The notes under the pieces were generated by a model. It was not told the origin of the DNA. It searched no databases and was given only the letters and a program-made list of their open reading frames with translations. Source: Pseudomonadota bacterium (GTDB lineage Bacteria; Bdellovibrionota_B; Oligoflexia; Oligoflexales; CAIYRB01). Taken from it: a DNA stretch of 41,162 nucleotides. Shown piece after piece: positions 16,373-41,162 of the stretch; within the stretch, counting starts at the first letter, position 1, and each line of letters begins with the position of its first letter. A program made the position numbers and the translations under genes. The stretch is from contig JAPLFY010000039.1 in NCBI GenBank assembly GCA_026390435.1, positions 1-41,162 of the forward strand, given 5' to 3'.

Positions 16373-17725
16373 ATGCACTTATGGAGTCTGCTTTCCGTAT
16401 ATATGGCTAAACTAGTAGCTCCGATGGGATTTATCCTTGTCGGAGCTATGGCATATTGGAGCGTCAGACGGCGTCGGCTAGATCAACAAAGGGCAGTTCA
16501 GGCATTTAAAGCCACAGTTGCCAATGACCTTATAGAACCAACGACGCTGCATCCAGAGATTGACGCAGCGCGGTGCACTGGATGCACGGCATGTGTGAGG
16601 GCGTGCCCTGAAGGTGAGATTCTGCAAATTATTAACCACCGGGCTGTTCTGGTAAAACCAAACATGTGTCTAGGGCATGGGCAGTGTGAAATTGCTTGTC
16701 CGTTTGGTGCAATTGATTTGGTGTTCGGGACTAAGCGAAGGGGGATGGAACTTCCCCGTATCACGACTAACTACGAAACCAATGTTAAGGGTCTTTATAT
16801 CGCGGGTGAGCTTGGTGGGATGGGCTTAATTCGAAATGCTGTGCGCCAGGGTAAAATGGCGGCTATGCATGCGATATCAGCGATGTCACCAAATATTCAG
16901 GCAGAATTAGATCTGTTAATCGTCGGAGCCGGCTCAGCAGGATTGTCGGCAGCGTTGGCTGCTGCGCAAGCGCGAATTAAATACGCATGTATTGAACAAA
17001 ATAGTGTGGGCGGGACCATCTACAATTTTCCCCGTCAGAAAATTGTCATGACTCAGCCGGCAGAGTTACCGATGGTTGGGACAATGGAGTTCCCAGGTAA
17101 TAAAGTTTCGAAAGAGGAGCTTTTAAGCTATTGGAGTAAAATACGGAAAAAATACCGCCTGAAAATTCGCGAGGATTGTAAGTTTATCAACCTTTCGAAA
17201 AATAATGAGGTCTTCACTGTGGAGACTTCTCTCGGTGTCATTAAAGCTAAAAAAGTGATTCTAGCGATGGGCGTGCGGGGTACTGCTATGAAGATTAATG
17301 TGCCTGGGGAGGAACTCCCGAAGGTCACCTATAATTTGCTTGAGCCAGAGCAATATCGTCGTCGGGAAATAGCTATTGTGGGTGGCGGTAATGCAGCTGT
17401 GGAAGCGGCGCTTCAGTTAGCAAATCCATCATTAAAAAATCGGGTGACATTGCTTGTTCGTAGTAAGTCCTTTAATAGAGCTAATCAAGAGAATATTGAA
17501 GCAGTTAATGCCCTAGCTCTACAAGGTAAGATCTGGATACTGTTTGAGAGTTCTATTTCTTCCATTCATCCAACGCATATCATGGTCGATTATGGTGGTA
17601 GTCAGATGAAATTGAATAATAGCTATGTTTTTATATTTGCCGGTGCCGAGATTCCTTCGGCTTTTCTGAAGGGACTAGGGATTAAAATGGAAAAGAAGTT
17701 TGGTGAAAGGTTGCAAAGGAAATGA
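16373..17725 (+). CDS. Membrane-anchored 2x[4Fe-4S]/FAD/NAD(P)-binding oxidoreductase
   Basis: A 450-residue electron-entry protein. One N-terminal membrane helix (about 13-29) precedes a basic patch (VRRRR). A ferredoxin domain follows, with Cys68/71/74/78 and a second set Cys99/105/109 in which the expected second Cys is His102 (CLGHGQC). A segment YIAGELGGMGLIRNA at about 142-156 resembles the FAD clamp normally found at the C terminus of thioredoxin-reductase-like proteins, but here it precedes the FAD-binding fold (VGAGSAG, 184-190) and the NAD(P) fold (VGGGNAA, 336-342). There is no redox CxxC. I recall this order in a YpdA-like Fe-S flavoprotein family. It would pass electrons between NAD(P)H or a quinone and the downstream cytochromes. 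Its stop overlaps the next gene as ATGA. Confidence 0.82.
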   Translation: MHLWSLLSVYMAKLVAPMGFILVGAMAYWSVRRRRLDQQRAVQAFKATVANDLIEPTTLHPEIDAARCTGCTACVRACPEGEILQIINHRAVLVKPNMCLGHGQCEIACPFGAIDLVFGTKRRGMELPRITTNYETNVKGLYIAGELGGMGLIRNAVRQGKMAAMHAISAMSPNIQAELDLLIVGAGSAGLSAALAAAQARIKYACIEQNSVGGTIYNFPRQKIVMTQPAELPMVGTMEFPGNKVSKEELLSYWSKIRKKYRLKIREDCKFINLSKNNEVFTVETSLGVIKAKKVILAMGVRGTAMKINVPGEELPKVTYNLLEPEQYRRREIAIVGGGNAAVEAALQLANPSLKNRVTLLVRSKSFNRANQENIEAVNALALQGKIWILFESSISSIHPTHIMVDYGGSQMKLNNSYVFIFAGAEIPSAFLKGLGIKMEKKFGERLQRK

Positions 17726-18138
17726 GATGTCTCGTTGTCACGGTGGCGACCTGTGGCCTGACCGCATGTCTAGTGCGCACCCCAGGTATAGGTGCATCGC
17801 AGTCTGTCACTCCAAAGTTTGAGCATGCTGAATTTATTGGCAGCAACACCTGTTCTGCTTGTCATGAGTCGCAAAGGCCAGCTCCAATAGATGATGAGAT
17901 TCATGGTGCGGGGGGAGAGTGCATTCGTTGTCACACACCCAAGGATGATAGATCCGGGTGGTTACCTCTCATCCCGTTCAAGCACACGCCAAAGCCGAGT
18001 TCATGTAATGAGTGCCATGCTCAGCAGCGTCCTGCAGACCCACATCCTCAAAAGACTGATTGTGTTTCATGTCACAATACTACGAGTTTTTCCACCGGAG
18101 CAGGGACTAATTTGCTGCCGAATTTTCTGGTGCCATAG
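17722..18138 (+). CDS. Small tetraheme c-type cytochrome, probable lipoprotein
   Basis: A 138-residue exported protein with four CxxCH heme-attachment motifs at residues 44-48, 67-71, 95-99 and 114-118. The N terminus is hydrophobic and contains LTAC at 13-16, a plausible lipobox, so it may be lipid-anchored on the periplasmic side. Extra histidines (His61, His88, His107) could be distal ligands, giving bis-His hemes. The start ATG 17722 overlaps the previous stop by 4 bases. It probably relays electrons between the inner-membrane flavoprotein and the outer-membrane part of the system. It does not match a named small cytochrome that I recognise. Confidence 0.82.
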   Translation: MRCLVVTVATCGLTACLVRTPGIGASQSVTPKFEHAEFIGSNTCSACHESQRPAPIDDEIHGAGGECIRCHTPKDDRSGWLPLIPFKHTPKPSSCNECHAQQRPADPHPQKTDCVSCHNTTSFSTGAGTNLLPNFLVP

Positions 18139-18160
18139 CTGAAAACTTAAACGAGTATTG

Positions 18161-19582
18161 ATGGTGGTTCGTATCTCATCGCTGTTGGCTATGTTCGCGT
18201 CGGTATTATCGACGCCATCACTGGCTTATGAATATACCGGACGACTTAATTTAGGTGTTTACGCAGCCAGAGAGAATCTCAATACGACTGATTCGGGATC
18301 TCGCGAAAATGACGCATTTCTCACTTTAGCTCGAGTCTACGTCGATGTGACTAGGATGGGATCTAATAATCTCGAGCTAATAGTGGATGCTAGAGATAAA
18401 TATGACTCTTTTGGGAGGGTTGAGCCAACGCTGGGACGTTTGGTGCAGGCGAATGAGCCTCAACTGCGGCAGCTAGTCCTGAAGTCCCCGCCAAGTAGTG
18501 GGGCTTTGTACTGGTCGCTCGGCCGTTTTGTGGCTGCAGATGCCTCTGTGCTCGGTAACGATGGGGTCGAGGGTGGCTATAAATGGAATGCCAACAGTCG
18601 GATCGCTTTGTTCGGTGGTCTATATCCCGAACACCGCGCCAACCGCTCATTGAAGATAACGGAGGAAGATCGGCAGGGCGGGGCCTACGGGGTCTATGAA
18701 GATTTGGGCCGTGCTGGTGAAAGCCATACTTACGCCGCCACGAGCCTAGTTATGCGGAAGGCAGTCACTGACATTGAGTCGTTAGACAATCCAGCCGCTC
18801 CATTGTTAGGAAGTACTCTTCCCGGCCAATCTCCGACCCTCCCACCTGATCATCCCCTAGGGAATTATTTATTCTGGTATACCAATGCGATTAGGCAATA
18901 TGAAAATGGCCAGCGCTTAAGCTACCTGTCGCATGTAGATATTCAACCATCTTTGCGTGTACGAAATCTTTGGGCTTCTCTTTACGAGCCAATTTCTCCC
19001 CATTTAATCGGTACTCTAGGGATCATTCATCTGAATTTAACGGAGTATCAGCGCCGTCGTGATCTTCTCGATCGCTTGCCTCCTAGTGCCTACACTCAAG
19101 TTGGTGGCGATGCTCGGTGGAAATTGAGTAATCAGTATGCTGTGGTTGGTGAGACTTCCTACGGTATACGTGGCAATGACGGAAAGAATCAGGCCGTGTT
19201 AGGCGGGAAAGTCGTTGCGACCGGCTTAATGCGTGGCCATCTCACAGTGTTTGGTGGTGCAGGTTACCGGAAAAATTTTATTAGTAACGACATTTTTACA
19301 AAAGCAGGTGTGACCTACTACGCAAGTAGTACATCGATATCTAGTAGTGCCCAATATACGGCTCAGAACCGAGATACCGGTGTCAAGCTTCATCCAGTGG
19401 TAATCGATCTCGAGGCCTCTTCTATGTTCAACAGGCAACTCATGGGATCGATTATTTTGGAGTCTGCGCGCGATGAACAGGCTTCGGTGTTCAGTGTCTT
19501 GTTAAGTCTGGGTTACCGAATCAATCATCGGCAGTTGACGCCAATGCGAGACACAACCCCGAGATTGGAGCGCATCTTGTGA
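18161..19582 (+). CDS. Outer-membrane beta-barrel, porin of the cytochrome conduit
   Basis: A 473-residue exported protein with a signal peptide ending near SLA (about residue 22). The rest is rich in alternating polar and aromatic beta strands (for example LARVYVDVTRMG, LELIVDARDKYDSFG, HLTVFGGAGYRKNF, FSVLLSLGYRI), as in outer-membrane barrels. No CxxCH motif or plug domain is visible. Its place between two multiheme cytochrome genes mirrors MtrB/PioB-type porins that sheath a cytochrome across the outer membrane, but I cannot align it to a specific one of these. ATG 18161 is preferred over the adjacent TTG; the ribosome site is weak. Its stop overlaps the GTG start of the 36-heme gene (GTGA), which indicates coupled translation. 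Confidence 0.78.
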   Translation: MVVRISSLLAMFASVLSTPSLAYEYTGRLNLGVYAARENLNTTDSGSRENDAFLTLARVYVDVTRMGSNNLELIVDARDKYDSFGRVEPTLGRLVQANEPQLRQLVLKSPPSSGALYWSLGRFVAADASVLGNDGVEGGYKWNANSRIALFGGLYPEHRANRSLKITEEDRQGGAYGVYEDLGRAGESHTYAATSLVMRKAVTDIESLDNPAAPLLGSTLPGQSPTLPPDHPLGNYLFWYTNAIRQYENGQRLSYLSHVDIQPSLRVRNLWASLYEPISPHLIGTLGIIHLNLTEYQRRRDLLDRLPPSAYTQVGGDARWKLSNQYAVVGETSYGIRGNDGKNQAVLGGKVVATGLMRGHLTVFGGAGYRKNFISNDIFTKAGVTYYASSTSISSSAQYTAQNRDTGVKLHPVVIDLEASSMFNRQLMGSIILESARDEQASVFSVLLSLGYRINHRQLTPMRDTTPRLERIL

Positions 19583-22500
19583 AAAACTGGATCCTAGCGC
19601 TTTTCGTCGTTACAAGTTGTCTGCTTGCCAATTGGACTTATGCTGGAACAGCTAAGGGCAAGGTGGTGGACAAGAGTATTCCCTCTGGGGAAGGTCTGAT
19701 TAATTCGTTGCTCGCACCTGGTCCGCTGATGGAGGGTCATAAAGAGTTTGAACACGGTGGTTGTCTAAAATGTCATGACGCCGGTAATGGCGTTCCCGAT
19801 AATAAGTGCCTTGAGTGTCATACTGAAATAAAGAAGTCGATAGCGAGAAAGACGGGCTTCCACGCGTTAGCTAAGGGCACTTGTCTGAGCTGCCATTCCG
19901 ATCATAAGGGGCGAGACTTCAACGCAATTGCTTTTAAACAGAAGGGTTTCGACCATAAAAAAACGGGATTTGCGCTAAATGGCGGGCACGTAGGCGTTGA
20001 ATGCTCCAAGTGTCACACAGAGCGCCGCACAGAGAAGCCAGTGCGTCGAAGTGACACTCATTTTTTCGGTCAGGATTCCTCGTGCGTGAGTTGTCACAAG
20101 AAAGATGATGTTCATGCATTCCCGCCAAAGTGGGGAGCTCGTGATTGTAATGCTTGCCATTCGGACAAGAATTGGAAGGAAGCATTTTTTGATCACAAAA
20201 AGGAAACAGGGTATTCCCTTGTGGGTGCTCATGCCAAGGTTAGTTGTGCTGAATGTCACGCGCCCCGTGGTAAGTCGTCCGTTAAATACAATTTTCCAGA
20301 GTTGAAACGCGAGGGCTGTCGAACCTGTCACGCTGATTTCCATAAAGAGAATTTAGACGGCAAATTTAAGGGTGGTGCATGTGAAAGCTGTCACGGACAG
20401 CAGAGCTGGAAAATTGCAAACTTTAATCATGACATCACCGGCTTTGTGCTTCGTGGTGCGCATGCAAAAGAACCGTGTGTGGCCTGTCACAAGCAGCCAC
20501 AGCATGTATCAAAATTAAAAGATTTTAATTTTACTGGACTCGGTACGCAGTGTTCTGGTTGTCATAAGGATTACCATGGATTTCGCAGTGAGATTTCGCC
20601 CAAGCAGGGGATGCTGGCCCAGTGTCAAACATGCCATAACGAAATTGCCTGGATGAGTTCCATTAAATTCAATCATAATACCGATACGAAGTATCCTATA
20701 GATGGCAAGCATATTGGAGTTAAGTGCTTTGAGTGCCACAAGCCACTCGCCGGGGGGAGTACTCCTAATACTGCGCGTGATTATTCGTTGCCTGAACTTG
20801 AGGCTCGTACCTGCGAGACCTGTCATAAAAGCCCGCATGATGCTGCGAAAAACCCAGTTTTTAAAACAAGCAAATGCTCAGCTTGTCACACGACTAAGGG
20901 GTGGAACATCTTGCCCCAAACGGCAGGTGCTGGATTCAACCACTCAACGATGACACGATTTCCTTTGACAGGTAATCATGTCCCCCTAAAGTGTGCTGAG
21001 TGTCATCTTAAGGGTGGTAAGCAAATTTATCGATTCCCCGGCGAAAAAACCCAATTTTGCGAAGAATGTCACAAGACTCCGCACAAGGAACAGTTTCAGC
21101 CAAAGTACCTGCAGCAGGCTTGCGTCGAATGTCATAACACGACAAAATTTGCCGATATATTCAAATACGATCATAACAAAACACAGTTTCATCTTGTCGA
21201 CGCCCATCAGAAGATTGGGCAGCAATGTGTAAAATGTCATACACCTACAAAACGAATGCTTGCGGTGAAGCCGCCGCACCCTGCTGGGAAATATATATTC
21301 GGTCATCAGCAAGAGGGATATTGTGTGGAATGTCACAAGAACCCACACAAAGATCAGTTCGATCCTCAGACGCGAAGCGATAATTGTCAGCAGTGTCATA
21401 ATATAAAAAGTTTTAAAGATTTAAATCAGTTTGATCACAATACCACGCAGTTCAAGATTACGGGTGCTCATACTAAGATCAAAGTGGACTGCGTGAAGTG
21501 TCACATCAAGACGGAAAAGATGCTTCCGGTGATTCCCCCGCGACCTGCTGGGAAATTTATGTTTGATCATCAGGAAACCGGATTTTGTGAAAGTTGTCAC
21601 TCTAACGTACACAAGGAACAATTTAGCACTCGCTTTGCTTCGAAGCCTTGTGTTGATTGTCATGTGACGGATGATTTTGTAAAGAGAAAGCCTTTTGATC
21701 ATAGTCAAACCGACTTCCACATCACTGGATCACACCAAAAAATTAAAAATGACTGTGGTGAATGCCATATAAAAACTCAGAAAAATTTGCCGACGAAGCC
21801 GCCAAAGCCAGCGTCATTGTTTCAGTTCGAGCATCAGAATACTGGTTTTTGTGAGGCCTGCCATTCGAATGAACACCAAGATCAGTTCCATGCAAAGTTT
21901 GCAAGTCAAGCATGCCGAACGTGTCATTCCACTGTTCATTTCAATGCCCCGATAAAGTTCGATCACAATCAATCAAGATACGATTTAAAGGGTAAGCATC
22001 TCAAAGTTAAATGTGAGGAATGCCACAAGCCGACGGCGAAAAAATTTAAGGAGGCCCCGCGTCATCACAAGGGGACGTTTATTTTCGCCGAGCTTCAGAG
22101 CAAGGATTGTGCGCTTTGCCATGCAGATCCGCATAAAGGGCAGTACGGTAAAAAATGCTCGCAGTGCCATGTCGAGACTGGATGGGAGAAAACATCTGAT
22201 TTCCATAAAGATTTTGTACTTACTGGAGTGCATTACATACTCGAATGCAACGAATGCCATGCTAATAAGCGTCAGCTGACTGGTACGGCTAATGATTGCA
22301 AGGTTTGCCACCAGAAAGATGACGCTCATTTGGGGTCACAGCCTAACTGTGCTGATTGTCATACTCAGCAGTTTTGGTCAGCCCAGCGCTTTCAACATTC
22401 TATGACACAGTTTCCGCTTCGAGGCTCCCATAGGTTGCTGGAGTGTTCGGAGTGTCACGCAAATGGGGTGTACCTGGGGCGATCGGCCGATTGTGCAAGC

Positions 22501-22614
22501 TGTCATATTCAGGATGCAGTTAAGGTCGTTTTTCCAGACCACAAGCTGAGTGGATTTGAACAATGTGAGACCTGTCATAATCAGTTCTCATTTAGTGGTG
22601 GAAAAAGACGCTAA
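19579..22614 (+). CDS. 36-heme c-type cytochrome built of tri-heme modules
   Basis: A 1011-residue exported protein (signal peptide, cleavage near YAG at 21-23). I counted 36 CxxCH motifs, the first at 62-66 and the last at 996-1000. Eleven modules begin with a DH-rich strand (consensus F-[DN]-H-x4-F-x-L-x-G-x-H), followed by three CxxCH motifs; three more hemes lie N-terminal of these, giving 12 x 3. Middle modules share PPxPAGK and GFCExCHxNxHKxQF and repeat with an exact 88-codon period. Abundant extra His residues could supply distal ligands. No membrane anchor is seen, so it is periplasmic, barrel-inserted or extracellular. It ends the operon and is the likely terminal conductor to or from an extracellular partner (metal, mineral or another cell). 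The direction of flow is unknown. Confidence 0.93.
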   Translation: MKNWILALFVVTSCLLANWTYAGTAKGKVVDKSIPSGEGLINSLLAPGPLMEGHKEFEHGGCLKCHDAGNGVPDNKCLECHTEIKKSIARKTGFHALAKGTCLSCHSDHKGRDFNAIAFKQKGFDHKKTGFALNGGHVGVECSKCHTERRTEKPVRRSDTHFFGQDSSCVSCHKKDDVHAFPPKWGARDCNACHSDKNWKEAFFDHKKETGYSLVGAHAKVSCAECHAPRGKSSVKYNFPELKREGCRTCHADFHKENLDGKFKGGACESCHGQQSWKIANFNHDITGFVLRGAHAKEPCVACHKQPQHVSKLKDFNFTGLGTQCSGCHKDYHGFRSEISPKQGMLAQCQTCHNEIAWMSSIKFNHNTDTKYPIDGKHIGVKCFECHKPLAGGSTPNTARDYSLPELEARTCETCHKSPHDAAKNPVFKTSKCSACHTTKGWNILPQTAGAGFNHSTMTRFPLTGNHVPLKCAECHLKGGKQIYRFPGEKTQFCEECHKTPHKEQFQPKYLQQACVECHNTTKFADIFKYDHNKTQFHLVDAHQKIGQQCVKCHTPTKRMLAVKPPHPAGKYIFGHQQEGYCVECHKNPHKDQFDPQTRSDNCQQCHNIKSFKDLNQFDHNTTQFKITGAHTKIKVDCVKCHIKTEKMLPVIPPRPAGKFMFDHQETGFCESCHSNVHKEQFSTRFASKPCVDCHVTDDFVKRKPFDHSQTDFHITGSHQKIKNDCGECHIKTQKNLPTKPPKPASLFQFEHQNTGFCEACHSNEHQDQFHAKFASQACRTCHSTVHFNAPIKFDHNQSRYDLKGKHLKVKCEECHKPTAKKFKEAPRHHKGTFIFAELQSKDCALCHADPHKGQYGKKCSQCHVETGWEKTSDFHKDFVLTGVHYILECNECHANKRQLTGTANDCKVCHQKDDAHLGSQPNCADCHTQQFWSAQRFQHSMTQFPLRGSHRLLECSECHANGVYLGRSADCASCHIQDAVKVVFPDHKLSGFEQCETCHNQFSFSGGKRR
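21169..21960 (+). repeat. Three exact 264-base tri-heme repeat units
   Basis: Within the 36-heme gene, equivalent Asp codons of the DH motif occur at 21169, 21433, 21697 and 21961, each 264 bases apart, so three units are exactly 88 codons long and a fourth starts at 21961. Heme motifs fall at matching places in each. Neighbouring modules are shorter (77 codons before, about 79 after). The pattern points to growth by tandem duplication followed by sequence divergence. Confidence 0.85.
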
Positions 22615-23757: not shown

Positions 23758-26190
23758 GTGACGACGCTTAAGTCGGCAGTAGACAAGCGCAATCAAATCC
23801 AGGCGCATAGCTTTTTTTGGCGGCGAATAATCCTTTGCATCCTTGCTCTCCTGCTTGCCCTGCTAATGATCTCATTATGGTCTTTGGTGCAGGCTCAAGG
23901 GCAATTTGAGCAGATGCTGCTCGGCATTGTTACTTTCGGATTGGTAGTCTTTTATGGGCGGCGGACGGTCTCCTCGCCACCGGTGAATGCTGTTGATTTG
24001 GCACTAGCCCTAGAAATTCAGTACGGTCGGCAAATTCACGCCCCCCTCAGTTCGGTGAATGTCGATCAGGAGCTAAGTCCAGGGTGGCAAGAGGCTTTGG
24101 CAGCGGATGGAAAGTTAATTCGTCGTGATGAGATGCGTGCTCGCCTCGCTTTTGCCAGTACGCTGATTATTCCGGTCTTGCTCACTGTAGTGACTCTTGC
24201 TAAGGCCGCTCCAAGTCTGCAGATTGCTCTCCGCGAAGTGTCCAAGGTTGTCGAACGCTTACATCCTAATGCTACGCTTACAGTGTTACAGGGCAGTGCC
24301 GATAGTGCGGAGAAGAATTTTGAATTGACGGTGAATAAGCCGCGAACGATTGAATTAATGGCGCAGAACCTTATTGAAATCAGGGTGGCAGGGCTGGGCA
24401 GGGATACGATCACTCCAGTCATCGAATTGAGACGCAAGCAGGTCGATAACGCGGCTGCCGAAAGCGTATTTCAGAGTTTTCAGATGACTCCTGTTCACAA
24501 CAGTTCGGCAGACGGTACTATTGCAGAGCACATGATCTCGTTTGCTGTGTCCGAGGATGTCGAGTTATTTATTACCGATCTTGATAGAGCTCATTCTTTG
24601 GCTCATTTGAGGGTGAGACAGCTGCCAGTGCCGAAAGTTAAGTTGCAGGTGTTATCTCAGCTTGAAAATCCATGGCCCGACGATCAACCTCTCAATCTTA
24701 AGATCCAGGTTAAAGCTGAGCATCCGCTGCAATCCGTGCATCTCCTCATCAAGGTAGATCAAAAGCAGTCCAAAGAGCTGGTTGCCAACATTCTCAGTGA
24801 GGATAAGTTCGAACTTCTGACAGATTATCGGGTATTACTTGAGCCTTACGTCGAAAATGATGTGGCCGAGATCGATATAGTAGCTGAAGCAGTCGATCGG
24901 GCATTACCCACCCCTCTTATCGGGCGCAGCGAGACGATTCATTTGACAGTGGCAAGTGCCTATGGAAGGTATCGCAGGGCTCTCCAAACACTTAGAGAAC
25001 TTAAATCATTGGTCGATGGCGCAGCTGAAAAGTCACCAATAAAACTGCCTCCCGAGGCAGCCACTCTGGTGAAGAAGGCGGTAGACGAATCCGATCGGTC
25101 GCCCTTCTTTGACGGAATGGATAGGCTGCAGATCCGCCGCTTTGATACTGGCGTTGAGGAATTAACCAACAGTACTGACGCGGGTAGTCTTTATGAGCTC
25201 AGTCAGGCTTTGAATGATTTTTTATTTGAACACGAGATCCTCGACGACAGGGAGCGTGACCGTGACTTCTTTGTTGCCGCGAGAATGCTTTCACACCAGC
25301 TAGAGGTCGAGCCAGCGAGTCGATCGGTCCCACTGACCACCGTGGTTGAACGGCTGAAAGTATTCTTGAACGGTAGGCACGAGCGTTGGCGTCTGCGTGT
25401 AGGGCGACTGAAGGCTGAACTCCAGCCACCTGAATGGAGTGAGATTGACGGTAAAAGGCCTTTTCACCAGTCTATGATAGCGATAGCAGTGCTGGACAAG
25501 AAAGTGCTCGCAGCTGCAGCGCAGTCAGAGCAGTTAACTGTCTTGTCGAAGATGGTGACTGATTACCGGGCTTGGATTCAACAGCTCGAGGCATTTGAAG
25601 ACAAGATGCGAGACGATGAGGACAGGCAACGGCAGCAGGGCCTAGCCTCCGCGAAAGATACTCTGAAGGAGCTGCAGAAGCGGCAGGGTGAGATTTCATC
25701 CGAGTTGGACCGAGCCAGTGAAAAGTCGTCCGAGCAGTTGAGTGATCAATGGCCTTCGGCGAGGATGAAGCAGAATATCAATATCAAGGAAACGCGCGTT
25801 TTAGAGGGTCAAATGCGTGCGTTATCGCCTACCTCTGCCATGAGAATTCAAGGCGCACTGGAAGCAATGGAGCAAGTCGTAGAGGCGGGAAGCGCCGCCG
25901 ATTACCGCTCTGCCGAGGCCGGCGCTGATCTTGCCGGTCGACTTCTGCGGCAGGCAGAGAGCGCTGCCCAACAGTCGCAGCAAAAGCGTCGGAGCCGCGG
26001 CCGCCGTCGGCGAGTCACGGGTGATAATTACTACGGGCAGTCGGTGGTCGGGGGGGATGTTGAGATCAAGCGTGAGTACCAGGTCGACCGTCGGTACCGA
26101 GAGGACATTTTGGAGGAGGTGCAATCTTCCGGTTATGACGAGGAAAATCGGGTCCTTCTGGAGAACTATCTCCGACGTGTGATACGGTAA
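23758..26190 (+). CDS. Large three-TM coiled-coil membrane protein, DUF4175-like
   Basis: An 810-residue inner-membrane protein. Hydrophobic helices lie at about 24-46, 52-67 and 131-149. A long periplasmic part with beta-rich repeats (about 170-400) follows, then helical and coiled-coil segments (about 400-720, including DDEDRQRQQGLASAKDTLKELQKRQ) and a basic stretch KRRSRGRRRRV near 745. The C terminus is acidic/helical (REDILEEVQSS). The two N-terminal helices, a third near residue 140 and the coiled-coil tail resemble the DUF4175 proteins I know from alphaproteobacteria and myxobacteria; function is unknown there too. GTG 23758 has AAAGGA about 8 bases upstream. A small protein gene follows 16 bases downstream and is probably its partner. 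Confidence 0.6.
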   Translation: MTTLKSAVDKRNQIQAHSFFWRRIILCILALLLALLMISLWSLVQAQGQFEQMLLGIVTFGLVVFYGRRTVSSPPVNAVDLALALEIQYGRQIHAPLSSVNVDQELSPGWQEALAADGKLIRRDEMRARLAFASTLIIPVLLTVVTLAKAAPSLQIALREVSKVVERLHPNATLTVLQGSADSAEKNFELTVNKPRTIELMAQNLIEIRVAGLGRDTITPVIELRRKQVDNAAAESVFQSFQMTPVHNSSADGTIAEHMISFAVSEDVELFITDLDRAHSLAHLRVRQLPVPKVKLQVLSQLENPWPDDQPLNLKIQVKAEHPLQSVHLLIKVDQKQSKELVANILSEDKFELLTDYRVLLEPYVENDVAEIDIVAEAVDRALPTPLIGRSETIHLTVASAYGRYRRALQTLRELKSLVDGAAEKSPIKLPPEAATLVKKAVDESDRSPFFDGMDRLQIRRFDTGVEELTNSTDAGSLYELSQALNDFLFEHEILDDRERDRDFFVAARMLSHQLEVEPASRSVPLTTVVERLKVFLNGRHERWRLRVGRLKAELQPPEWSEIDGKRPFHQSMIAIAVLDKKVLAAAAQSEQLTVLSKMVTDYRAWIQQLEAFEDKMRDDEDRQRQQGLASAKDTLKELQKRQGEISSELDRASEKSSEQLSDQWPSARMKQNINIKETRVLEGQMRALSPTSAMRIQGALEAMEQVVEAGSAADYRSAEAGADLAGRLLRQAESAAQQSQQKRRSRGRRRRVTGDNYYGQSVVGGDVEIKREYQVDRRYREDILEEVQSSGYDEENRVLLENYLRRVIR

Positions 26191-26206
26191 ACCGCGAGGG
26201 ACCGCG

Positions 26207-26536
26207 ATGAATTTAAGAACTCCCAACGAGCAGCTTACGCAGCTTATAAGCCGATATGCCCAGGCGGCCATGACTAGTCGGCAGATAGCTCGGCGGGTGT
26301 GGTCTCTATTTCCGGCACGCTATAAGCAACTCAAGGGGGAACTCGCGAGGGGTGGCTTTGCAGGGGGGCGTGTCGAGCGTCTAGCGCTCACTGATCCGCG
26401 CTTTGAGGACATAGTTCGTGAGTTGACGGACGTGAGCCACGTAGCTTTGCAGGCTCGGATTGAATATGAGACCCATGCCATGCTTTTTAAGGCACGGCAG
26501 AGTTTGCGCGCCCTGCGGCAACATAAGGTTCGCTAG
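26207..26536 (+). CDS. Small basic helical protein of unknown function
   Basis: A 109-residue protein with no domain I recognise. It is rich in Arg, Leu and Ala and predicted helical throughout, without a signal peptide or membrane segment. Start ATG 26207 has GAGGGA a few bases upstream, and the gene lies 16 bases after the DUF4175-like gene, so the pair is likely co-transcribed. Its codons look like those of its neighbours, which supports it as real. It could be a cytoplasmic partner of the membrane protein; nothing more can be said from the sequence. Confidence 0.65.
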   Translation: MNLRTPNEQLTQLISRYAQAAMTSRQIARRVWSLFPARYKQLKGELARGGFAGGRVERLALTDPRFEDIVRELTDVSHVALQARIEYETHAMLFKARQSLRALRQHKVR

Positions 26537-26660: not shown

Positions 26661-28679
26661 GTGGCATTGATTCCTCATTTGATTTTTGCACTGCTCGCCC
26701 TTGGATCCTTTAGCTTCCTGGCGGTTAATTTGCGGCGGATCTGGGGCACGATCCACGTCGGGGTTGGCGTTGATGATGTGCGCACAAATCGCGTGTTTGA
26801 GCGCGTCTTCGGTATGCTTAAGGGCGGCTTCCTGCAACCTAAGATGCTGAAGGATATTTGGCCAGCGATCATGCACTACATGATCTTTTTTGGCTTTGTG
26901 ACTGTTTCTGTCGGCACCCTAGAAACACTGGTGCACGGCATTTTTGAGGCATTTTCTTTTCAATTAATTCTGGGTAATGGTGGCATCTACAGCTTTTATT
27001 TGGCATCGCAGGATATAGCTAACTTTGTCGTAGCCATCGCTATCGGCGCGGCTTTTGTTCGACGTTTGGTATTCAAGCCATGGCGGCTATCGCAGTTGGA
27101 AAAAAGCTCCCGCGTCGATGCTTACATTGTCCTTGGGTTTATACTCGCGCTCGTTGTGACCTCTTTGATTTACATGGGGGGGGAAACATTTATCGAAGGA
27201 GGACAAGGGTTGCCGGCAGGCCCATTACTGTTCTCTCGCTTTCTCGGCGGTGGGGTAGGTCGCCTCATTGGTGTGAGCTCTACCGAAGGATGGGAAATCT
27301 TAAGCAAGACATTTTGGTGGGCGCATTGTTTGGTTCTTTTCTCATTTATGATGTTTCTGCCGTCGTCGAAACATCAGCATTTTATCTGGGTTTGGCCGAA
27401 CATGTTCCTGCGTAGCTTGACTGCGCGTGGACGACTGAAGTCTCTGGAATTTGACGAAAACGCGGAGAGCTTTGGGATTGGCAAAGTTAAGGATTTTAGT
27501 TGGAAGCAGCTACTCGACGGCATTACTTGCGTTGAGTGCGGCCGTTGCACCGAACAATGTCCAGCGACCACTACGGGTAAGCCGTTGGATCCACGACTGA
27601 TTATGAAACACCTTAAAGTAGCCGTGGCTGAGGTGAGTAAAGGCGTACCCGAAGATCAGCGTACCCCGCTAATTGGTGAACAGGGTGCGATTGTGACGCC
27701 GGAAGAACTTTGGTCTTGCACGACCTGCGGTGCCTGTATGGAGGCATGTCCGCTTTATATCGAACATATACCTGCGATCGTTGGTATGCGCCGATATTTG
27801 ACCCTCACAGAGGGCGCTTTTCCCCCTGAGTTGGCCAATACCTTTAAAAGTCTGGAGACTAGTTCATCACCGTGGCCTATGGACCCATCCACTCGGGCTG
27901 ATTGGGCTAAAGGGCAAAATATCACGACGATGGCCGATAAGAGCGATGTCGAGTACTTATTTTGGGTTGGCTGCGCCGGATCGTACGATGAACGCTATAA
28001 GAACGTTTCTCGATCAATCGCTAAAATTATGCAGACTGCAGGCGTCAGCTTCTCCATTTTGGGGACTGAGGAGCAGTGTAACGGCGATACAGCTAGGCGA
28101 CTTGGAAATGAGTATTTGGCAAAGATGCAGATCGAGGCCAACGTAGAGACTTTCAAGCGGTATCAAGTGAAGAAAGTCGTTACAGGATGCCCCCATTGCT
28201 TCAACACATTAAAAAACGAATATCCTGAATTTGGTGTTAATCTAGAGGTGCTTCATCACAGTGAACTGATCAGCGATCTCAGCGCTAAAGGAAAGATAAA
28301 ACCGCAGCAAGTTCCGGCTGAAATGACCCAGATGACTTACCACGATTCCTGCTATTTGGGTCGGCATAATGAGGTTTATGATGAGCCGCGGAATGCCCTC
28401 AAAGCTCTGCCTAAAGTCGAACTCAAGGAAATGCCCCGCAGTCGTGAAACGGGTTTCTGTTGCGGCGCTGGCGGCGGGCGTATGTGGCTGGAAGAAACTC
28501 AAGGAACACGCATCAACATCAATCGGGCGAAGGAGGCTATCGCCACTGGAGCATCGACCGTCGCTACTGCGTGTCCATTCTGTATGACGATGCTAACTGA
28601 CGGAGTCAAATCTGAGGGCAAGGGCGATAGTGTAGTGGTCAAAGATATCGCAGAAATTGTTGCAGATTCGTTACAGTAG
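26661..28679 (+). CDS. Membrane Fe-S oxidoreductase with CCG domains (ETF:quinone-oxidoreductase-like)
   Basis: A 672-residue protein combining about five or six membrane helices resembling the heme-binding gamma subunit of nitrate reductase (residues 1-260) with a cytoplasmic iron-sulfur part. Two [4Fe-4S] motifs, [12 protein letters not shown] and [12 protein letters not shown], are followed by two CCG (DUF224/HdrD-type) domains, with CPHCFNTL..., [25 protein letters not shown] and CPFCMTML. The same layout occurs in membrane proteins proposed to take electrons from electron-transfer flavoprotein and reduce menaquinone during fatty-acid oxidation. Start GTG 26661 has GGAGA about 5 bases upstream. 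It contains a run of eight G at 27176-27183 without frame disruption. No ETF genes are in the window, so the donor is inferred. Confidence 0.82.
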
Positions 28680-31623: not shown

Positions 31624-32313
31624 ATGACTGCCGTGGTTCGCATCTCTAGTGTCGAGAAGATTTATCCTCTGGGTAAGACGCAGGTTCATGCCTTGTCTGG
31701 TATCGACATGGATATTCAGGAAGGTGAGTTTACTACGATTGCTGGTCCCTCCGGCTGTGGTAAATCGACCCTGCTAAACCTCATAGGATGTATGGATGTT
31801 CCGACATCTGGTGAGGTCTATATCGAGGGTCGCCCGATCGCTAAGCTAAGTGATCGGGAGTTGACGAAGCTAAGGCTAGAGAAGCTGGGCTTTATTTTTC
31901 AGAGCTTTAACCTAATCCCCGTCCTCACGGTATTTCAAAATGTTGAGTTTCCGCTGCTTTTGCAGGGGCGATTTAGCCGTGCGGAACGCCAGCAAAAGGT
32001 CTCAGCACTGCTTGCAGAGGTAGATCTTACGGCACAGCAAAGTCAGCGTTCCAGCGAATTGTCTGGCGGTCAGAGACAACGAGTAGCGATCGCTAGAGCG
32101 TTGGTCACCGGGCCGCGTATTGTGCTTGCGGATGAGCCCACGGCTAACCTTGATTCAGCAACGGGCGAGCGAATCATTGAACTCATGAAGACGATTAATC
32201 GGACTCATAAAACGACATTTATCTTTTCCACGCATGATCCGCAGGTGATGCGTCAGGCAGGGCGGATTATTCGTCTTAAGGACGGCAAAGTAGTAACGGG
32301 GCAAGATTCGTGA
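31624..32313 (+). CDS. ABC transporter ATPase, LolD/MacB type
   Basis: A 229-residue nucleotide-binding subunit. Walker A is GPSGCGKST at 41-49, the signature is LSGGQRQR, Walker B is IVLADEPT, and the switch His is in FSTHDP. The short sequence and the FNLIPVLTVFQNVEFPLLL Q-loop region match ATPases of the LolCDE/MacAB class, which drive FtsX-type permeases rather than classical import or export channels. Its stop overlaps the GTG start of the first permease (GTGA), and the two permeases plus a LolA-like protein follow. The complex would use ATP for mechanical transfer of a lipoprotein or substrate from the inner membrane. Confidence 0.93.
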   Translation: MTAVVRISSVEKIYPLGKTQVHALSGIDMDIQEGEFTTIAGPSGCGKSTLLNLIGCMDVPTSGEVYIEGRPIAKLSDRELTKLRLEKLGFIFQSFNLIPVLTVFQNVEFPLLLQGRFSRAERQQKVSALLAEVDLTAQQSQRSSELSGGQRQRVAIARALVTGPRIVLADEPTANLDSATGERIIELMKTINRTHKTTFIFSTHDPQVMRQAGRIIRLKDGKVVTGQDS

Positions 32314-34406
32314 GCTCGCAGCTAGGTCAGCTACGCCTAATTTCTTCGGTAGCCTTACGTAATCTGTGGTTGGACCGTTTCAGAACAACGATTGTCGGAG
32401 CGCTCATAGCATTTGGGGCGTTTTTGGCTGTTATCGGTCTGTCTTTGTTGAACGATGTTCGTGCCTCGATGCGCGCCAGTATTACTCAGAGTGTTGCTGG
32501 TGATCTGCAAATTTATTCTGCTAACGCCAAGGATAGTCTGACGCTGTTCGGTGGCAGCGGTTTTATGGGGCGGACTGATATCGGTAATTTGCCTAATTTT
32601 GCGCTGTATCGTGATGAAATTTTGCGTCATCCAAATGTCGCAGCATTTGTCCCTATGGGACTTGATATGGCGGTGCTGGCGCGTGGTAACGAGCTTGATG
32701 ATAGTCTGGACGCATTGCGCAGTGCGATTAAGGGCGAGGATTCAGCTATTATAGCTGGGCGAATAGCGCAGGTGCGTTTTCAGTTAGAGCAAGTTGGTTT
32801 AGAGCTAACCGCCCGCCGTCAACTTAGCGCCGATCAGGCTGAGCTGGAACAGCAGGAGCGTGACCTGAAGGTCGCCGCCGCGCCCGAGTTTCTGCAAGAT
32901 GCGAGTAAAATCGACGAAGCGAAATTACAGTTTTTAGAAACCCGGATTGCACCGCTTTCCGGTGAGAAGTTGCCAACCTACATTCAATACTTTGGTACCG
33001 ATATTGCTGCTTATCTAGCCAATTTCCCGAAATTTCATTTGATAGAGGGGGCTGTGCTAGGCCCGGGTGAGCGTGGCATCATGCTCAGCCGAAAAGTGCG
33101 CGATGAGCAGCTAAAGAATTCAGTAGCTAAGCTTTTTGATAAAATTCACAAGCGGCTAACTAAACGCAATCAATCGATCGCTGGCGACGATGAGTGTCGC
33201 CGCTTTGCCTCCGACTTAAAAAAACAGTATCAGCAGATTCTTTCCTATTTAGATCGTGCGGATGCCGAAGAGTTAAGTCGCAGGTTGACAGATTTAGGTA
33301 TTGCAGCTGTCGGTGGCGATGAATTGGTACAGCGCCTGAGTCATCAGCTGACCTTGTTTTTGACAGTTGACGATTCTAATTTCGAGCAACGTTATGCGTG
33401 GTTTTACGCCAATATCGCGCCTAAAATTCGGCTTTATGAAGTGTCGCCTGGTCAAACCATCACGGTCCGGAGCTATACGCGAAGTGGATACATTAAGACC
33501 CTGCCTCTCAAGGTGTATGGGATCTATAATTTTGATGGTTTAGAAGATTCAGATTTAGCCGGCGTGCTGAATATTATGGACTTGGTTAGTTTTCGGGAAC
33601 TCTATGGACAGATGACCGAGGCGTCTCGTCGGGAGCTAGATGTGATGCGGGCTCAAGTCGGCATCAAAGATGTTAGCGCGGAAAATGCTGAGACGGACCT
33701 TTTCGGTAGCGAGCGTCCTGCGACTACAGTCGCAGTAAATGACATAAGAGAGGCTGCGGAGCCGCTTTCCGTCAAGCCTAGATTGGCAGATCACTTCGAT
33801 CCTCAAGAACTACAGCGAGGCCTTGCGCTTAATGCTGCGATTAAGCTTAAGGATTCAGGGAAAGAAGAGAAGACACAGCAAGAACTGATTGCCGCCCTAG
33901 AGAATCGAGGGCTGAAAGCAAATATTGTTGGGTGGCAAAAAGCATCGGGAATTGTCGGTCAGCTAGTAAATATTGTTGGAGGGACTCTGGTCTTTGCCTT
34001 AGCGATTATATTTTTAGTGGCCTTTGTGATTGTAAATAACTCAATTATTGTTGGCACTTTGAATCGCACTCGAGAGATTGGAACTATGCGTGCAATCGGA
34101 GCCCAGCGTTCTCTTATTGTGAATCTATTTCTTGCTGAGACAGGCATAACCGGGTTCTTCGGCGCGGTCTCTGGAACGGCATTGGCGGTGGTGGTAATCC
34201 TGCTGGCGGGCCGCCTTGGTATTCCAGCTGGAAACGATATCGTTACGTTTATTTTTTCGGGCCCGCGGTTATACCCTCGTGTGCACTGGGCGGTGGTAAC
34301 AACGGCTCCCATTTTGATCACCATCGTGGCAACGTTAGCCTCGGTCTATGCGGCTCGTCATGCGGCCAAGATTCAGCCGGCTGATGCAACCCAGGAGAAG
34401 GAGTAA
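32310..34406 (+). CDS. FtsX-like ABC permease with large periplasmic domain
   Basis: A 698-residue permease subunit. It has one N-terminal membrane helix (about 25-48), a very long periplasmic domain (about 50-545), then three C-terminal helices (about 553-578, 605-635, 660-685) in the order typical of the MacB/LolC/LolE family. The motif GTLNRTREIGTMRAIGAQRSLI precedes the last helices. The periplasmic domain is about 250 residues longer than in its partner and includes a long polar, coiled-coil-like stretch (residues about 130-200) and DDECRRFASDLKKQYQQ. This suggests a specialised docking role. It begins at GTG 32310 overlapping the ATPase gene, and its stop overlaps the next start (TAATG). 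Confidence 0.88.
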   Translation: MSSQLGQLRLISSVALRNLWLDRFRTTIVGALIAFGAFLAVIGLSLLNDVRASMRASITQSVAGDLQIYSANAKDSLTLFGGSGFMGRTDIGNLPNFALYRDEILRHPNVAAFVPMGLDMAVLARGNELDDSLDALRSAIKGEDSAIIAGRIAQVRFQLEQVGLELTARRQLSADQAELEQQERDLKVAAAPEFLQDASKIDEAKLQFLETRIAPLSGEKLPTYIQYFGTDIAAYLANFPKFHLIEGAVLGPGERGIMLSRKVRDEQLKNSVAKLFDKIHKRLTKRNQSIAGDDECRRFASDLKKQYQQILSYLDRADAEELSRRLTDLGIAAVGGDELVQRLSHQLTLFLTVDDSNFEQRYAWFYANIAPKIRLYEVSPGQTITVRSYTRSGYIKTLPLKVYGIYNFDGLEDSDLAGVLNIMDLVSFRELYGQMTEASRRELDVMRAQVGIKDVSAENAETDLFGSERPATTVAVNDIREAAEPLSVKPRLADHFDPQELQRGLALNAAIKLKDSGKEEKTQQELIAALENRGLKANIVGWQKASGIVGQLVNIVGGTLVFALAIIFLVAFVIVNNSIIVGTLNRTREIGTMRAIGAQRSLIVNLFLAETGITGFFGAVSGTALAVVVILLAGRLGIPAGNDIVTFIFSGPRLYPRVHWAVVTTAPILITIVATLASVYAARHAAKIQPADATQEKE

Positions 34407-35743
34407 TGATTACCATCTTCCGGATAGCATTTCGCAATATGATTCAGGCAAAGCGGCGTTCCTTACTGCTAGGCCTGGCAATTGCGATAGTGGCAGCGCT
34501 TTTTTTAGTGCTTCGAGTGGTTTCTGGGTCGATTGCAGAGCGTATGATCGAATCCGCTACTACGCTATCCGCTGGTCACGTGAATGTGGGTGGTTTTTTT
34601 AAAGCACGTCGACGGGGTTCTGACCCGCTGATTAGTGATAGGTCACTGGTTAAGCAGATCGTTAAGCAATCTGTGCCGGAAGCAGTGTCGTTGACCGATC
34701 GCCATCGGGGTTGGGGGCGAATCGTCGGCCCAAGCTCATCTTTTAATGTTGGACTAAGTGGGATTGAGTACACCGAAGAAAAGCGCTTTTTTAAGTCCCT
34801 AAGGTTAGCGCCCGAATCTGAATACAAAGTTGGAGCGAGCGATAGAATTTTGGGTGATTTCGCCGGGCTGCAGCAACCGAATTCAGTGCTTATATTTTCG
34901 GCTCAGGCAAAAAAGTTGGGTGTGGGTGTCGGCGACACACTTACTATGGTTATTGAGGGGGCAAGAGCCAATACAGTGGATCTCACCATAGTTGCGGTGG
35001 CCTCTGATATTGGCTTTATGAGTAATTGGAATCTTTTTGTGCCGCGGCAAACAGTGCTTGATCTGTATCGTCTGCAACCTAACAGCACAGGCGTGGTGAT
35101 GGTCTATCTGCCTAATCCAGACCGAGCTACTGCCGTCATGGAGCGGCTGCGCGGAAATTTAACCAAAGCTGGATTAACAGTAATGGAACACGATCCGCGC
35201 CCCTTTTTCTTCAAGTTCGACAAAGTCAGCGGCGAAGACTGGTTAGGGCAGCGCCTTGATCTCACCATTTGGAGCGATGAGATATCTTTCGTGTTGTGGA
35301 TAACACGGGCGTTGGATTTTGTTTCATTTTTTGTCGTCGGCATTCTAGCTCTCATCATAGTGGGAGGGATTGTTAACTCCATGTGGATGGCAGTGAGGGA
35401 AAGGACGAAGGAAATCGGTACGATGCGAGCTATTGGCGCACCTAAGTCCATGATTGTGAAGATTTTTGTCGCCGAAGCCCTGCTGCTCGGAGTGTTTGCT
35501 GCGACGGTGGGAGCCGGTTTAGGATGTGCTCTGATCGGAGTCACTAATTTTCTTAAGGTGCCCGTAACTAGTGATGGCGTGCGATTATTTTTGATGACAA
35601 ATACGCTCCAGTTTAACATCCACTGGACGCAGGTAGTGACTACGTTGGTTTTGTTCTCAGCGGTAACCGGCATTGCGGCGCTTTATCCGGCGTTTAAGGC
35701 GGCTCGTTTGAAGCCCGTGGAAGCTCTTCTTAGCGGTAAATAG
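34406..35743 (+). CDS. FtsX-like ABC permease
   Basis: A 445-residue permease subunit, the second of a pair. It has the same four-helix arrangement: an N-terminal helix at about 20-45, a periplasmic domain of about 260 residues, then helices near 305-330, 355-385 and 410-435. The cytoplasmic motif MAVRERTKEIGTMRAIGAPKSM is almost identical in kind to that of its partner. Together the two permeases probably form a heterodimer like LolC/LolE around the ATPase. The start overlaps the preceding stop, with GGAG about 5 bases upstream, and the LolA-like gene follows 13 bases after the stop. Confidence 0.9.
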   Translation: MITIFRIAFRNMIQAKRRSLLLGLAIAIVAALFLVLRVVSGSIAERMIESATTLSAGHVNVGGFFKARRRGSDPLISDRSLVKQIVKQSVPEAVSLTDRHRGWGRIVGPSSSFNVGLSGIEYTEEKRFFKSLRLAPESEYKVGASDRILGDFAGLQQPNSVLIFSAQAKKLGVGVGDTLTMVIEGARANTVDLTIVAVASDIGFMSNWNLFVPRQTVLDLYRLQPNSTGVVMVYLPNPDRATAVMERLRGNLTKAGLTVMEHDPRPFFFKFDKVSGEDWLGQRLDLTIWSDEISFVLWITRALDFVSFFVVGILALIIVGGIVNSMWMAVRERTKEIGTMRAIGAPKSMIVKIFVAEALLLGVFAATVGAGLGCALIGVTNFLKVPVTSDGVRLFLMTNTLQFNIHWTQVVTTLVLFSAVTGIAALYPAFKAARLKPVEALLSGK

Positions 35744-35756
35744 CGGAGTTAATCGT

Positions 35757-36536
35757 ATGAGAAAAATATTAGGTTTGTTGTCGGTACTATTCAGTCTTCT
35801 TTCTTTTGCTCAGGTAGGCACGGCCTTAACAGATAAAGAAGTCAAAGAATTAGTTACTTTGATTGATGTCAGGCAGCGTAATGTCGGTGATTATGCATCG
35901 ATAGTATTTATCGATCAGAAGTCGAAAGACGGATCCAGTAAGGCTTTTGAAGCCCGCGTGTATCGCCGAGATGGTGATGATAAATGGATGATCTTGTTTG
36001 CAAAGCCGAAGGCTGAAGCTGGAAAGGGTTATTTGCGACTCGAAAAGAACTTGTTTCTTTACGAGCCTGCCCTGGGTAAGTGGGAACGCCAGACTGAACG
36101 GGCCAGTATCGCCGGGACTAATAGCCGCCGCGACGATTTCGATCAGTCTAGATTAGCTCAAGAGTATGAGGCCGTATTTGTAGCCGATGAATCTTTAGGT
36201 CGATTTAAGGTCTACCACCTGAAGCTGACAGCTAAGCCTGGTCTTGAAGTGGCCAGTCCTGTCTTGGAAATTTGGATCGATCAAAACGAAAAAAATGTCA
36301 TGAAACGTCAGGAATTCGCGCTTTCTGGCAAGTTATTGCGCACGAGCTACTATCCAAGTTGGGAGAAAATGTTCAGTAAGTCGAAGGGCGCAGAGGTATA
36401 CGTGCCAAAAGAGATTCGGGTCTTTGATGAGGTGGAGAAGGGCAATGCGACCACTGTAGCTCTGAGAGATGTGAAGCTTGATGCTCTGGATGTGAATATG
36501 TTCACCAAGGCATGGCTTGAGTCACAGAGTCGTTAA
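35757..36536 (+). CDS. LolA-like outer-membrane lipoprotein-sorting protein
   Basis: A 259-residue exported protein with a signal peptide (hydrophobic 4-20, TALT near cleavage). The mature part has the LolA/LolB-type beta half-barrel sequence pattern seen in proteins of the PF17131-type group: FEARVYRRDGDDKWMILFAKP, KGYLRLEKNLFLYEPALGKWERQ, then a segment AGTNSRRDDFDQSRLAQEYEAVF and a final KEIRVFDEV...VALRDVKLD. Such proteins are often encoded beside a MacB-like ABC system, as here, and would carry a lipidated or hydrophobic substrate through the periplasm. ATG 35757 has GCGGAG about 8 bases upstream. It is the last gene of the M16-ABC operon. Confidence 0.87.
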   Translation: MRKILGLLSVLFSLLSFAQVGTALTDKEVKELVTLIDVRQRNVGDYASIVFIDQKSKDGSSKAFEARVYRRDGDDKWMILFAKPKAEAGKGYLRLEKNLFLYEPALGKWERQTERASIAGTNSRRDDFDQSRLAQEYEAVFVADESLGRFKVYHLKLTAKPGLEVASPVLEIWIDQNEKNVMKRQEFALSGKLLRTSYYPSWEKMFSKSKGAEVYVPKEIRVFDEVEKGNATTVALRDVKLDALDVNMFTKAWLESQSR

Positions 36537-38498: not shown

Positions 38499-38749
38499 GG
38501 AAATTTCCGGAATTTTCGTGTGCAGAGCCTTCTGGGTATGATGAATCTCCAGAGCCGTGAGGCGGTCTCTGAGGCTTTCAGTGGATCGGTAGATGAAAGC
38601 ATTTTCATGCTGATTTCATTCGGCTCTCAAATTTGCATGCTAAACTTTAAACTTATAATGTGCTGGAATGCGGGGTTCCTTAGGTACGCCGATACTTCAA
38701 ATATATGCCCGAAAATGAATCTATTTTTGATTAATTAGCGGAGTTGGAT
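38499..38749. promoter_or_regulatory. Divergent intergenic region with a candidate promoter for the SulP/DabA genes
   Basis: A perfect -10 hexamer TATAAT occurs at 38654-38659. A -35-like TTTGCA at 38632-38637 is 16 bases upstream, so it is a moderate sigma70 candidate directed at the SulP gene with a leader of about 85 bases. A small inverted repeat AGCAT-TTTC-ATGCT lies near 38598-38611 and could be an operator. A 72-codon open frame (38520-38738) crosses this region but is not supported. Confidence 0.4.
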
Positions 38750-40420: not shown

Positions 40421-40433
40421 ACGGAGTGCTCTA

Positions 40434-41162
40434 ATGACGAGTAGTGCAGACCTGCAGGGATTGGCGGGTCATACTTCCGATCTTGACGCGATCATGGAAT
40501 CGATTGGGCATGATTTGCCTCAGCAGGGTCCGATCAAGGACTTTATCCACCACAATACCCTCCATGCATTCCAAGATATGAATTTCCATGATGGCGTTGC
40601 TGAGGCAAGCCGACGTTACAGGGCGCGGAGTTTCATGCCGTTGCCTTTTTATCATCAGGCCTACAAGGAGCAGCGCATTGTAATCGCAGCCCTTGATCTT
40701 GCGCTGAGTGATCAGAAAGTCTCAGAGCGTGACCTTGGTACAGGTCGTAGTCGGCTACTTGGTGGTATCGATGCGGCACCTGATATTCAAACCGGACATA
40801 TCGGTAAGCAAGAAAAGATAATCGATGAGCGTCTGCGTCTGGATTTGTTGATTCATCCGATGCTTTTTCGCTTAGTAGCGAATTTCTTAGATCAGGGTTT
40901 AGCGATTTGGCCGATGCCGGGGCGGCATGGTGGTTTTTGGGAGGCAATCAACGCTCTCGCCACGAATAGGTTGTGCGCCTTGCCACCTTTGAGTGATCCG
41001 GAAGCTCGCCAACTGCTCACCCTTGGTCCCAAAGCAGCTTTAGAGATCTGTCTGCAACGGCTAGTTGCCGAGAAAAGGGACTGGCATGTTTATCTCTTAA
41101 ATCTTTGTTTGGCACATCCCGGCTGGTCGGGCATGGTCCGTATGATTGAGACTCAGCCCCAA
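40434..41162 (+). CDS. dabA: DabA (DUF2309) inorganic-carbon transporter subunit, 5' part
   Basis: The first 243 residues of a DUF2309 protein, cut by the window end with the frame open. The N terminus holds the family hallmark PIKDFIHHNTLHAFQDM and later HPGWSGMV. Full-length members are about 800-1000 residues; the zinc-binding Cys, Asp and His residues of the carbonic-anhydrase-like site lie beyond the window. DabA works with a membrane partner (DabB, an NADH-dehydrogenase-subunit-5-like protein) to take up CO2 or bicarbonate. Here the neighbour upstream is a SulP transporter and no DabB gene is visible in the window. ATG 40434 has ACGGAG 7 bases upstream. Confidence 0.9.
   Translation, partial: MTSSADLQGLAGHTSDLDAIMESIGHDLPQQGPIKDFIHHNTLHAFQDMNFHDGVAEASRRYRARSFMPLPFYHQAYKEQRIVIAALDLALSDQKVSERDLGTGRSRLLGGIDAAPDIQTGHIGKQEKIIDERLRLDLLIHPMLFRLVANFLDQGLAIWPMPGRHGGFWEAINALATNRLCALPPLSDPEARQLLTLGPKAALEICLQRLVAEKRDWHVYLLNLCLAHPGWSGMVRMIETQPQ

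Follow-up and report, generated by a model that had tools for sequence, protein, structure and literature searches.

A 36-heme cytochrome c encoded at positions 19579..22614 on the + strand of the window, the 41,162-nucleotide stretch of DNA analysed here, is best read as the long cytochrome in an electron conduit of the porin-cytochrome type, one that comes close to PCC3, with a probability that we put at roughly 0.68. PCC3 comprises a porin, an extracellular and a periplasmic multiheme cytochrome and an inner-membrane protein, IMP (He et al. 2017, PMC5566968). The 36-heme protein probably carries electrons from the inner membrane toward the outside. Its gene is the last of a compact cluster, following those of an NAD(P)H/FAD/ferredoxin membrane protein, a tetraheme lipoprotein and a probable barrel, all on the + strand. 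The number of hemes is itself not new, since PCC3 cytochromes of 21-85 hemes were published in 2017; the novelty lies in the variation of length by triheme steps, in the lineage, in the presence of an NAD(P)H module and in the sharing of a membrane protein.

The cytochrome is 1011 residues long, begins with a GTG codon that overlaps the stop of the putative barrel gene by 4 nt, and matches the Pfam families Cytochrome_C7 (2e-37) and Cytochrom_c3_2 (1e-33). The initial annotation had placed the gene exactly in coordinates, strand and length, and our recount returned the 36 CxxCH motifs it had reported, indeed more hemes than in MtrA/MtrC or OmcS, as it had remarked. Chance does not produce such a number, as 2000 residue shuffles of the same protein yielded 0.45 motifs on average and at most 4. 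All 36 sites are plain CxxCH, with no CX3-4CH motif anywhere in the protein. Four other genomes encode proteins of 58-96% identity with the same number and spacing of motifs, which led us to reject an assembly artefact. Hemes would presumably be attached to all 36 motifs, and the genome holds c-type cytochrome assembly genes. Beyond the histidines of the motifs the protein has 49 further His, possible distal ligands, and with three such His recurring per module this would fit bis-His ligation throughout; Met number only 9. The residue-to-heme ratio is 28.

The modular reading of the initial annotation, three N-terminal hemes followed by eleven modules that each consist of a strand and a heme triplet, proved correct, with a divergent strand in module 10. 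The first three motifs (residues 62, 77 and 102) belong to an N-terminal triheme block, residues 36-112 (19684..19914). The triplets of the eleven modules start at residues 142, 223, 300, 383, 472, 550, 638, 726, 812, 890 and 956. In ten modules the triplet is preceded by a clear strand of the form [F/Y]xH..T.F.L.G.H, and module 10 carries the divergent version TSDFHKDFVLTGVH. Ten residues are invariant in every module, nine of them belonging to the heme motifs (the two Cys and the His of every CxxCH) and the tenth being a further His. The His of the first strand is nearly invariant among modules, and a third non-motif His follows the second CxxCH in most of them. In the module alignment these histidines form three distal-His columns that repeat from module to module, so that each module offers about three distal ligands.

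Comparison with relatives divides the chain into three further segments. Modules m1-m5 (residues 124-529, 19948..21165), defined by the module alignment, are collinear in orthologues; m6-m8 (residues 530-793, 21166..21957) are three copies of ~88 residues whose number varies; and the compact modules m9-m11 (residues 794-1011, 21958..22611), recognised by their spacing and invariant columns, have CxxCH spacings down to 16-17 residues and are conserved in all homologues. Pairwise identity between modules ranges from 29 to 61%, with m7/m8 (61%) and m6/m7 (53%) at the top. Matching every module of eleven other proteins to those of the 36-heme protein gave a collinear map, in which whole modules have been gained or lost. 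Homologues carry 24, 27, 33 or 36 CxxCH, and all 12 from this phylum have heme numbers divisible by three. The 36-heme forms have m1 to m11 complete, and the 33-heme forms have two copies from the m6-m8 tract in place of three. A single copy from this tract is present in the 27-heme forms, which also lack m2, and in the 24-heme forms, which lack m2 and m3. Collinear modules that differ by whole units support duplication, and together with the multiples of three they indicate that the chain has changed its length by entire triheme units, mainly within a single tract.

The genes preceding the cytochrome offer a view of its likely partners. The first (16373..17725) encodes a membrane-anchored oxidoreductase of 450 aa with Pfam Pyr_redox_3 (1e-41) and Fer4 domains, in which an N-terminal hydrophobic segment and two Fe-S motifs are combined with a YpdA-like FAD/NAD(P) domain. 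It is present in every genome that has this cytochrome cluster, save one incomplete MAG, and a homologue in Emticicia is 42% identical and stands in the same gene order. Its second ferredoxin motif (residues 99-109) reads CxxHxxCxxxC, with the second Cys replaced by a His that is invariant in 14/14 homologues, which suggests a His-ligated or three-iron cluster. The second gene (17722..18138) overlaps the first by 4 nt and encodes a small lipoprotein of 138 aa with 4 CxxCH and the lipobox LTAC, whose lipid-attachment Cys is invariant in all 9 aligned sequences. This lipoprotein has 2-heme forms in the relatives L028 and L030 and is absent in L026 and L032.

The third gene (18158..19582) encodes a protein of 474 aa that is probably an outer-membrane beta-barrel, and presumably a porin, judging by a signal-peptide-like N terminus and by its position immediately upstream of the cytochrome gene in every cluster. 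It has no Pfam or PDB match, and matches to portal proteins (E 0.015) were taken as chance. A crude count of amphipathic strands did not separate it from its soluble neighbours. The barrel would probably be smaller than the 26-strand MtrB, and the MtrB/PioB-family barrel (PF11854) has no match in the genome or in the 474-aa protein. Counting the window, 13 clusters in 11 genomes from two families show the order FAD/Fe-S protein, small heme lipoprotein (sometimes missing), barrel, multiheme cytochrome.

This arrangement bears on a rival reading, in which the 36-heme protein is a periplasmic electron capacitor whose hemes serve chiefly as an electron store between a donor in the inner membrane and other periplasmic acceptors, the barrel being incidental or of other use. 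Such a role has been proposed for monomeric multi-domain cytochromes such as GSU1996 (PMC10138318), storage was also raised by the authors of work on PCC3 (PMC10734462), and the co-encoded tetraheme protein could serve as a partner. We nevertheless consider this reading unlikely, as every cluster has the barrel gene directly before that of the cytochrome, the two overlapping by 4 nt in the 36-heme cluster, and storage alone leaves the conserved N-terminal block and the collinear order of the modules unexplained.

Several genes downstream of the cluster were also noted. An 810-aa membrane protein and a 109-aa protein (23758-26536), both lacking Pfam and NCBIfam matches, adjoin the cluster in relatives too. 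They are followed by an HdrD/GlcF-like Fe-S protein (26661-28679) that is anchored in the membrane and contains two CCG domains. It is also found downstream of the cluster in the relatives L033 and L037, and none was seen at the sister cluster described below. Further on (31624-36536) lie an ABC ATPase, two FtsX-type permeases and a LolA-like protein, and an apparently similar ABC/permease set stands beside the sister cluster (L026 6168-11268; L027 12040-17093). The repetition suggests a duplicated segment, or lipoprotein-sorting genes travelling with the conduit. The window ends (38744-41162) with a SulP-type anion transporter and a further ORF, which we take to resemble DabA/DUF2309 (inorganic carbon uptake).

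The 36-heme cluster itself contains no IMP gene. A second cluster in the same genome (153 contigs), located on contig C23 and encoding a 24-heme protein, begins with the IMP that the 36-heme cluster is missing, a membrane protein of 261 aa. Two WX3HX13H motifs and SGxxG, the motifs published for the IMPs of PCC3/PCC4 and interpreted there as two b-hemes, are perfectly kept in the IMPs of the sister cluster, of phylum relatives and of Emticicia. A hydropathy threshold gave 3-5 segments for these proteins, as against the five TM helices published for the PCC3 IMP. Each of the six genus members carries two clusters with two FAD genes but a single IMP, which without exception lies on the contig of the 24/27-heme-type cytochrome and is in no case next to the 36-heme one. 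Two clusters with a single IMP between them suggest one inner-membrane hub that serves two conduits. The second family has one cluster and one of each gene.

All genomes with the IMP carry the cytochrome, and 12 of the 14 genomes with a cytochrome match carry the IMP, the other two being one incomplete MAG and one marginal match. Among 58 genomes of the phylum, all in one class, the cytochrome family occurs in two families of one order; this pattern of kinship suggests that the lineage is Oligoflexia. A search of contigs returned a single match, a 96% identical relative that is a MAG (Loclat_bin-10810). The conserved NAD(P)H/FAD/ferredoxin partner, together with the b-heme membrane protein, speaks for NAD(P)H, and not quinol, as the redox partner on the inner side, unlike the published model.

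The N-terminal block hints at the orientation of the chain. A tblastn search of plasmids with the cytochrome gave matches in 47 records, and the best of these all begin within query residues 1-47 and, except in Emticicia, cover only about the N-terminal quarter. Six plasmid cytochromes examined besides that of Emticicia have 240-265 aa and 7 hemes, and their genes follow those of an IMP-like protein and an FAD/NAD reductase, with no evident barrel; a 2Fe-2S domain is present in the reductase of all four sets tested. The N-terminal block profile scores 45-61 bits on these six porin-less proteins and 57 bits on the 23-heme protein of Emticicia, and only 16 on the 40-heme protein of the same organism. 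No other block of the 36-heme protein exceeds 31 bits on the 7-heme cytochromes. We infer from these scores that the N-terminal block is the end at which the inner-membrane b-type cytochrome would dock, an orientation that would turn the compact modules m9-m11 toward the outer membrane as the proposed barrel-facing end.

The plasmid-borne relatives form a group of their own. The porin-less three-gene set of FAD/2Fe-2S reductase, IMP-like protein and 7-heme cytochrome recurs on plasmids (L039 and L041-L045, plus the 47 records) of Alpha- and Gammaproteobacteria and Bacteroidota. Copper or heavy-metal genes often lie close by, and 25 of the 47 records are typed conjugative. These sets (Sphingobium, Bradyrhizobium, Pontibacter, Salinimonas and others) share with the 36-heme system the IMP logic and the N-terminal triheme block. 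They differ from it in that the cytochrome has 7 hemes, a barrel is missing, the FAD protein belongs to another family and metal-resistance genes are often adjacent. A fuller related cluster on the Emticicia oligotrophica plasmid pEMTOL02 (L038 2520-14387) comprises a CcsA-type assembly protein, the IMP, the FAD/Fe-S protein, the 23-heme and 40-heme cytochromes and a 538-aa protein.

The same N-terminal evidence weighs on the reading of the 36-heme protein as an exported nanowire or surface cytochrome of the PCC3 extracellular type. Published PCC3 heme numbers have a median of 34, and reach 85, for the extracellular cytochromes and a median of 21 for the periplasmic ones (PMC5566968), so that 36 hemes come near the former and not the latter. 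The N-terminal block, however, is common to the IMP-linked cytochromes and the Emticicia 23-heme protein and is not shared with the 40-heme one. The composition is lysine-rich rather than Thr/Ser/Ala/Gly-rich, with T+S+A+G at 25.1% compared with 24.7% in the Emticicia 23-heme protein and 34.1% in the 40-heme protein. The chain begins with a signal peptide read from the sequence (residues 1-22, 19579..19644, with probable cleavage between TYA and GT), and no conserved lipobox Cys is found across the orthologues. The shared block, the composition and the lack of a conserved lipobox make export to the surface distinctly improbable.

Structure prediction does not add heme geometry to this picture. 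AlphaFold2 gave a mean pLDDT of 24.9 for the full chain aligned with one homologue and 44.6 for a bi-module query whose alignment consisted of the remaining modules of the same protein, and Foldseek of the bi-module model against the PDB returned a single meaningless match and nothing else, so that no heme-heme distances are derivable. The initial annotation had described a single-chain wire built by duplication; the duplication stands on the module identities and whole-module differences given above, while the wire finds no support in these models.

Profile comparisons with known structures gave distant matches. The module profile matches 3oue_A (3e-7), which we take to be a fragment of GSU1996, and 6r2q_A (3e-6), presumably MtrA; both matches are weak and partly driven by CxxCH. 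A profile of full-length homologues likewise found only weak matches in the PDB, best to sixteen-heme cytochromes, and phmmer with the full 36-heme protein found none there. A search of the genome for PF09699 gave no match. That the protein is a multiheme enzyme (a reductase) rather than a conduit is highly improbable, because the octaheme nitrite reductases touched by the module profile are short and weak matches, all 36 sites are plain CxxCH with no other kind of heme site, and the three recurrent distal His per module leave no obvious open heme.

In the conduit that we favour, the FAD/ferredoxin membrane protein would be the cytoplasmic entry or exit point of electrons for NAD(P)H. Electrons would pass between cytoplasmic NAD(P)H and the two-b-heme IMP, whose single gene per genome lies in the sister cluster and which would be shared, and between the IMP and the N-terminal triheme block docked to it. 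From there they would move along the eleven triheme modules, provided these pack linearly, to the outer membrane, where the putative barrel and the tetraheme lipoprotein, if localised there, would complete the path. The number of triheme modules would then set the length of the conduit. If hemes were packed as in MtrA, where 10 of them span 80 angstrom, the 36 in a linear chain would measure ~290-310 angstrom and the 24 of the sister protein ~190-205 angstrom, for a periplasm of about 200 angstrom; these lengths are arithmetic and not evidence. An extended version, in which one polypeptide spans the whole envelope and enters or threads the barrel while the 24-heme sister just crosses the periplasm, is tentative and, in our judgement, rather doubtful. 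If true, it would mean that NAD(P)H is wired directly to the surface without soluble shuttles, over a length set in triheme steps. The homologues of 24, 27, 33 and 36 hemes form a natural length series whose members differ by entire three-heme units, and whether wire length follows envelope width thus becomes directly testable.

Among known systems, MtrAB/MtoAB/PioAB likewise encode a cytochrome and a barrel (here putative) side by side, and the 36-heme protein has weak profile matches to MtrA and the DmsE-family decahemes. It differs in having 36 hemes instead of 10, and membership was rejected, as TIGR03508 (DmsE family) scores 75 bits against a cut-off of 192 and the genome has no PF11854. 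GSU1996 of Geobacter is a single-chain "nanowire" cytochrome of triheme domains with a solved structure, and proteins of this type have a linear heme array with edge distances of 3-5 angstrom and a proposed capacitor role (PMC10138318). The 36-heme protein resembles it in its consecutive triheme domains within one chain and in the weak profile match to the solved fragment. It has twelve blocks in place of the 4 domains of GSU1996, and three recurrent distal His per module with 9 Met in total, whereas GSU1996 has one His-Met heme per domain. GSU1996 is also described as a periplasmic capacitor with no barrel mentioned, in contrast to the 36-heme cluster with its probable barrel.

The closest likeness is to PCC3, which has already been described in iron-oxidising bacteria, with the conduit role being a proposal; expression data from Sideroxydans ES-1 establish no link between PCC3 and iron oxidation. 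PCC3 cytochromes are repeat-rich and have 22-39 residues per heme (PMC5566968). The periplasmic ones of Gallionellaceae have 21, 24 or 27 motifs and long, mostly linear models (PMC10734462). As in PCC3, a putative porin stands beside a very heme-rich, repeat-built cytochrome with a low residue-to-heme ratio, and the 36 CxxCH at 28 residues per heme in a protein of presumed periplasmic location fall inside the published range. The heme counts are multiples of three, as in Gallionellaceae, and the IMP motifs are identical, although located in the sister cluster. Unlike PCC3, the cluster has no large extracellular multiheme cytochrome and only the 138-aa tetraheme lipoprotein, which is diheme or absent in some relatives; the probable barrel is small; an NAD(P)H/FAD/ferredoxin subunit not among the published components is added; the IMP lies outside the 36-heme cluster and is shared between two clusters; and a protein of the periplasmic type reaches 36 hemes. 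Compared via the published description and motifs, the system is PCC3-like in anatomy, and we do not file it as a member because a large extracellular cytochrome is missing, the IMP is elsewhere in the genome and the barrel is a prediction. Read in this way, it extends PCC3-like systems beyond the lineages of earlier PCC3 reports.
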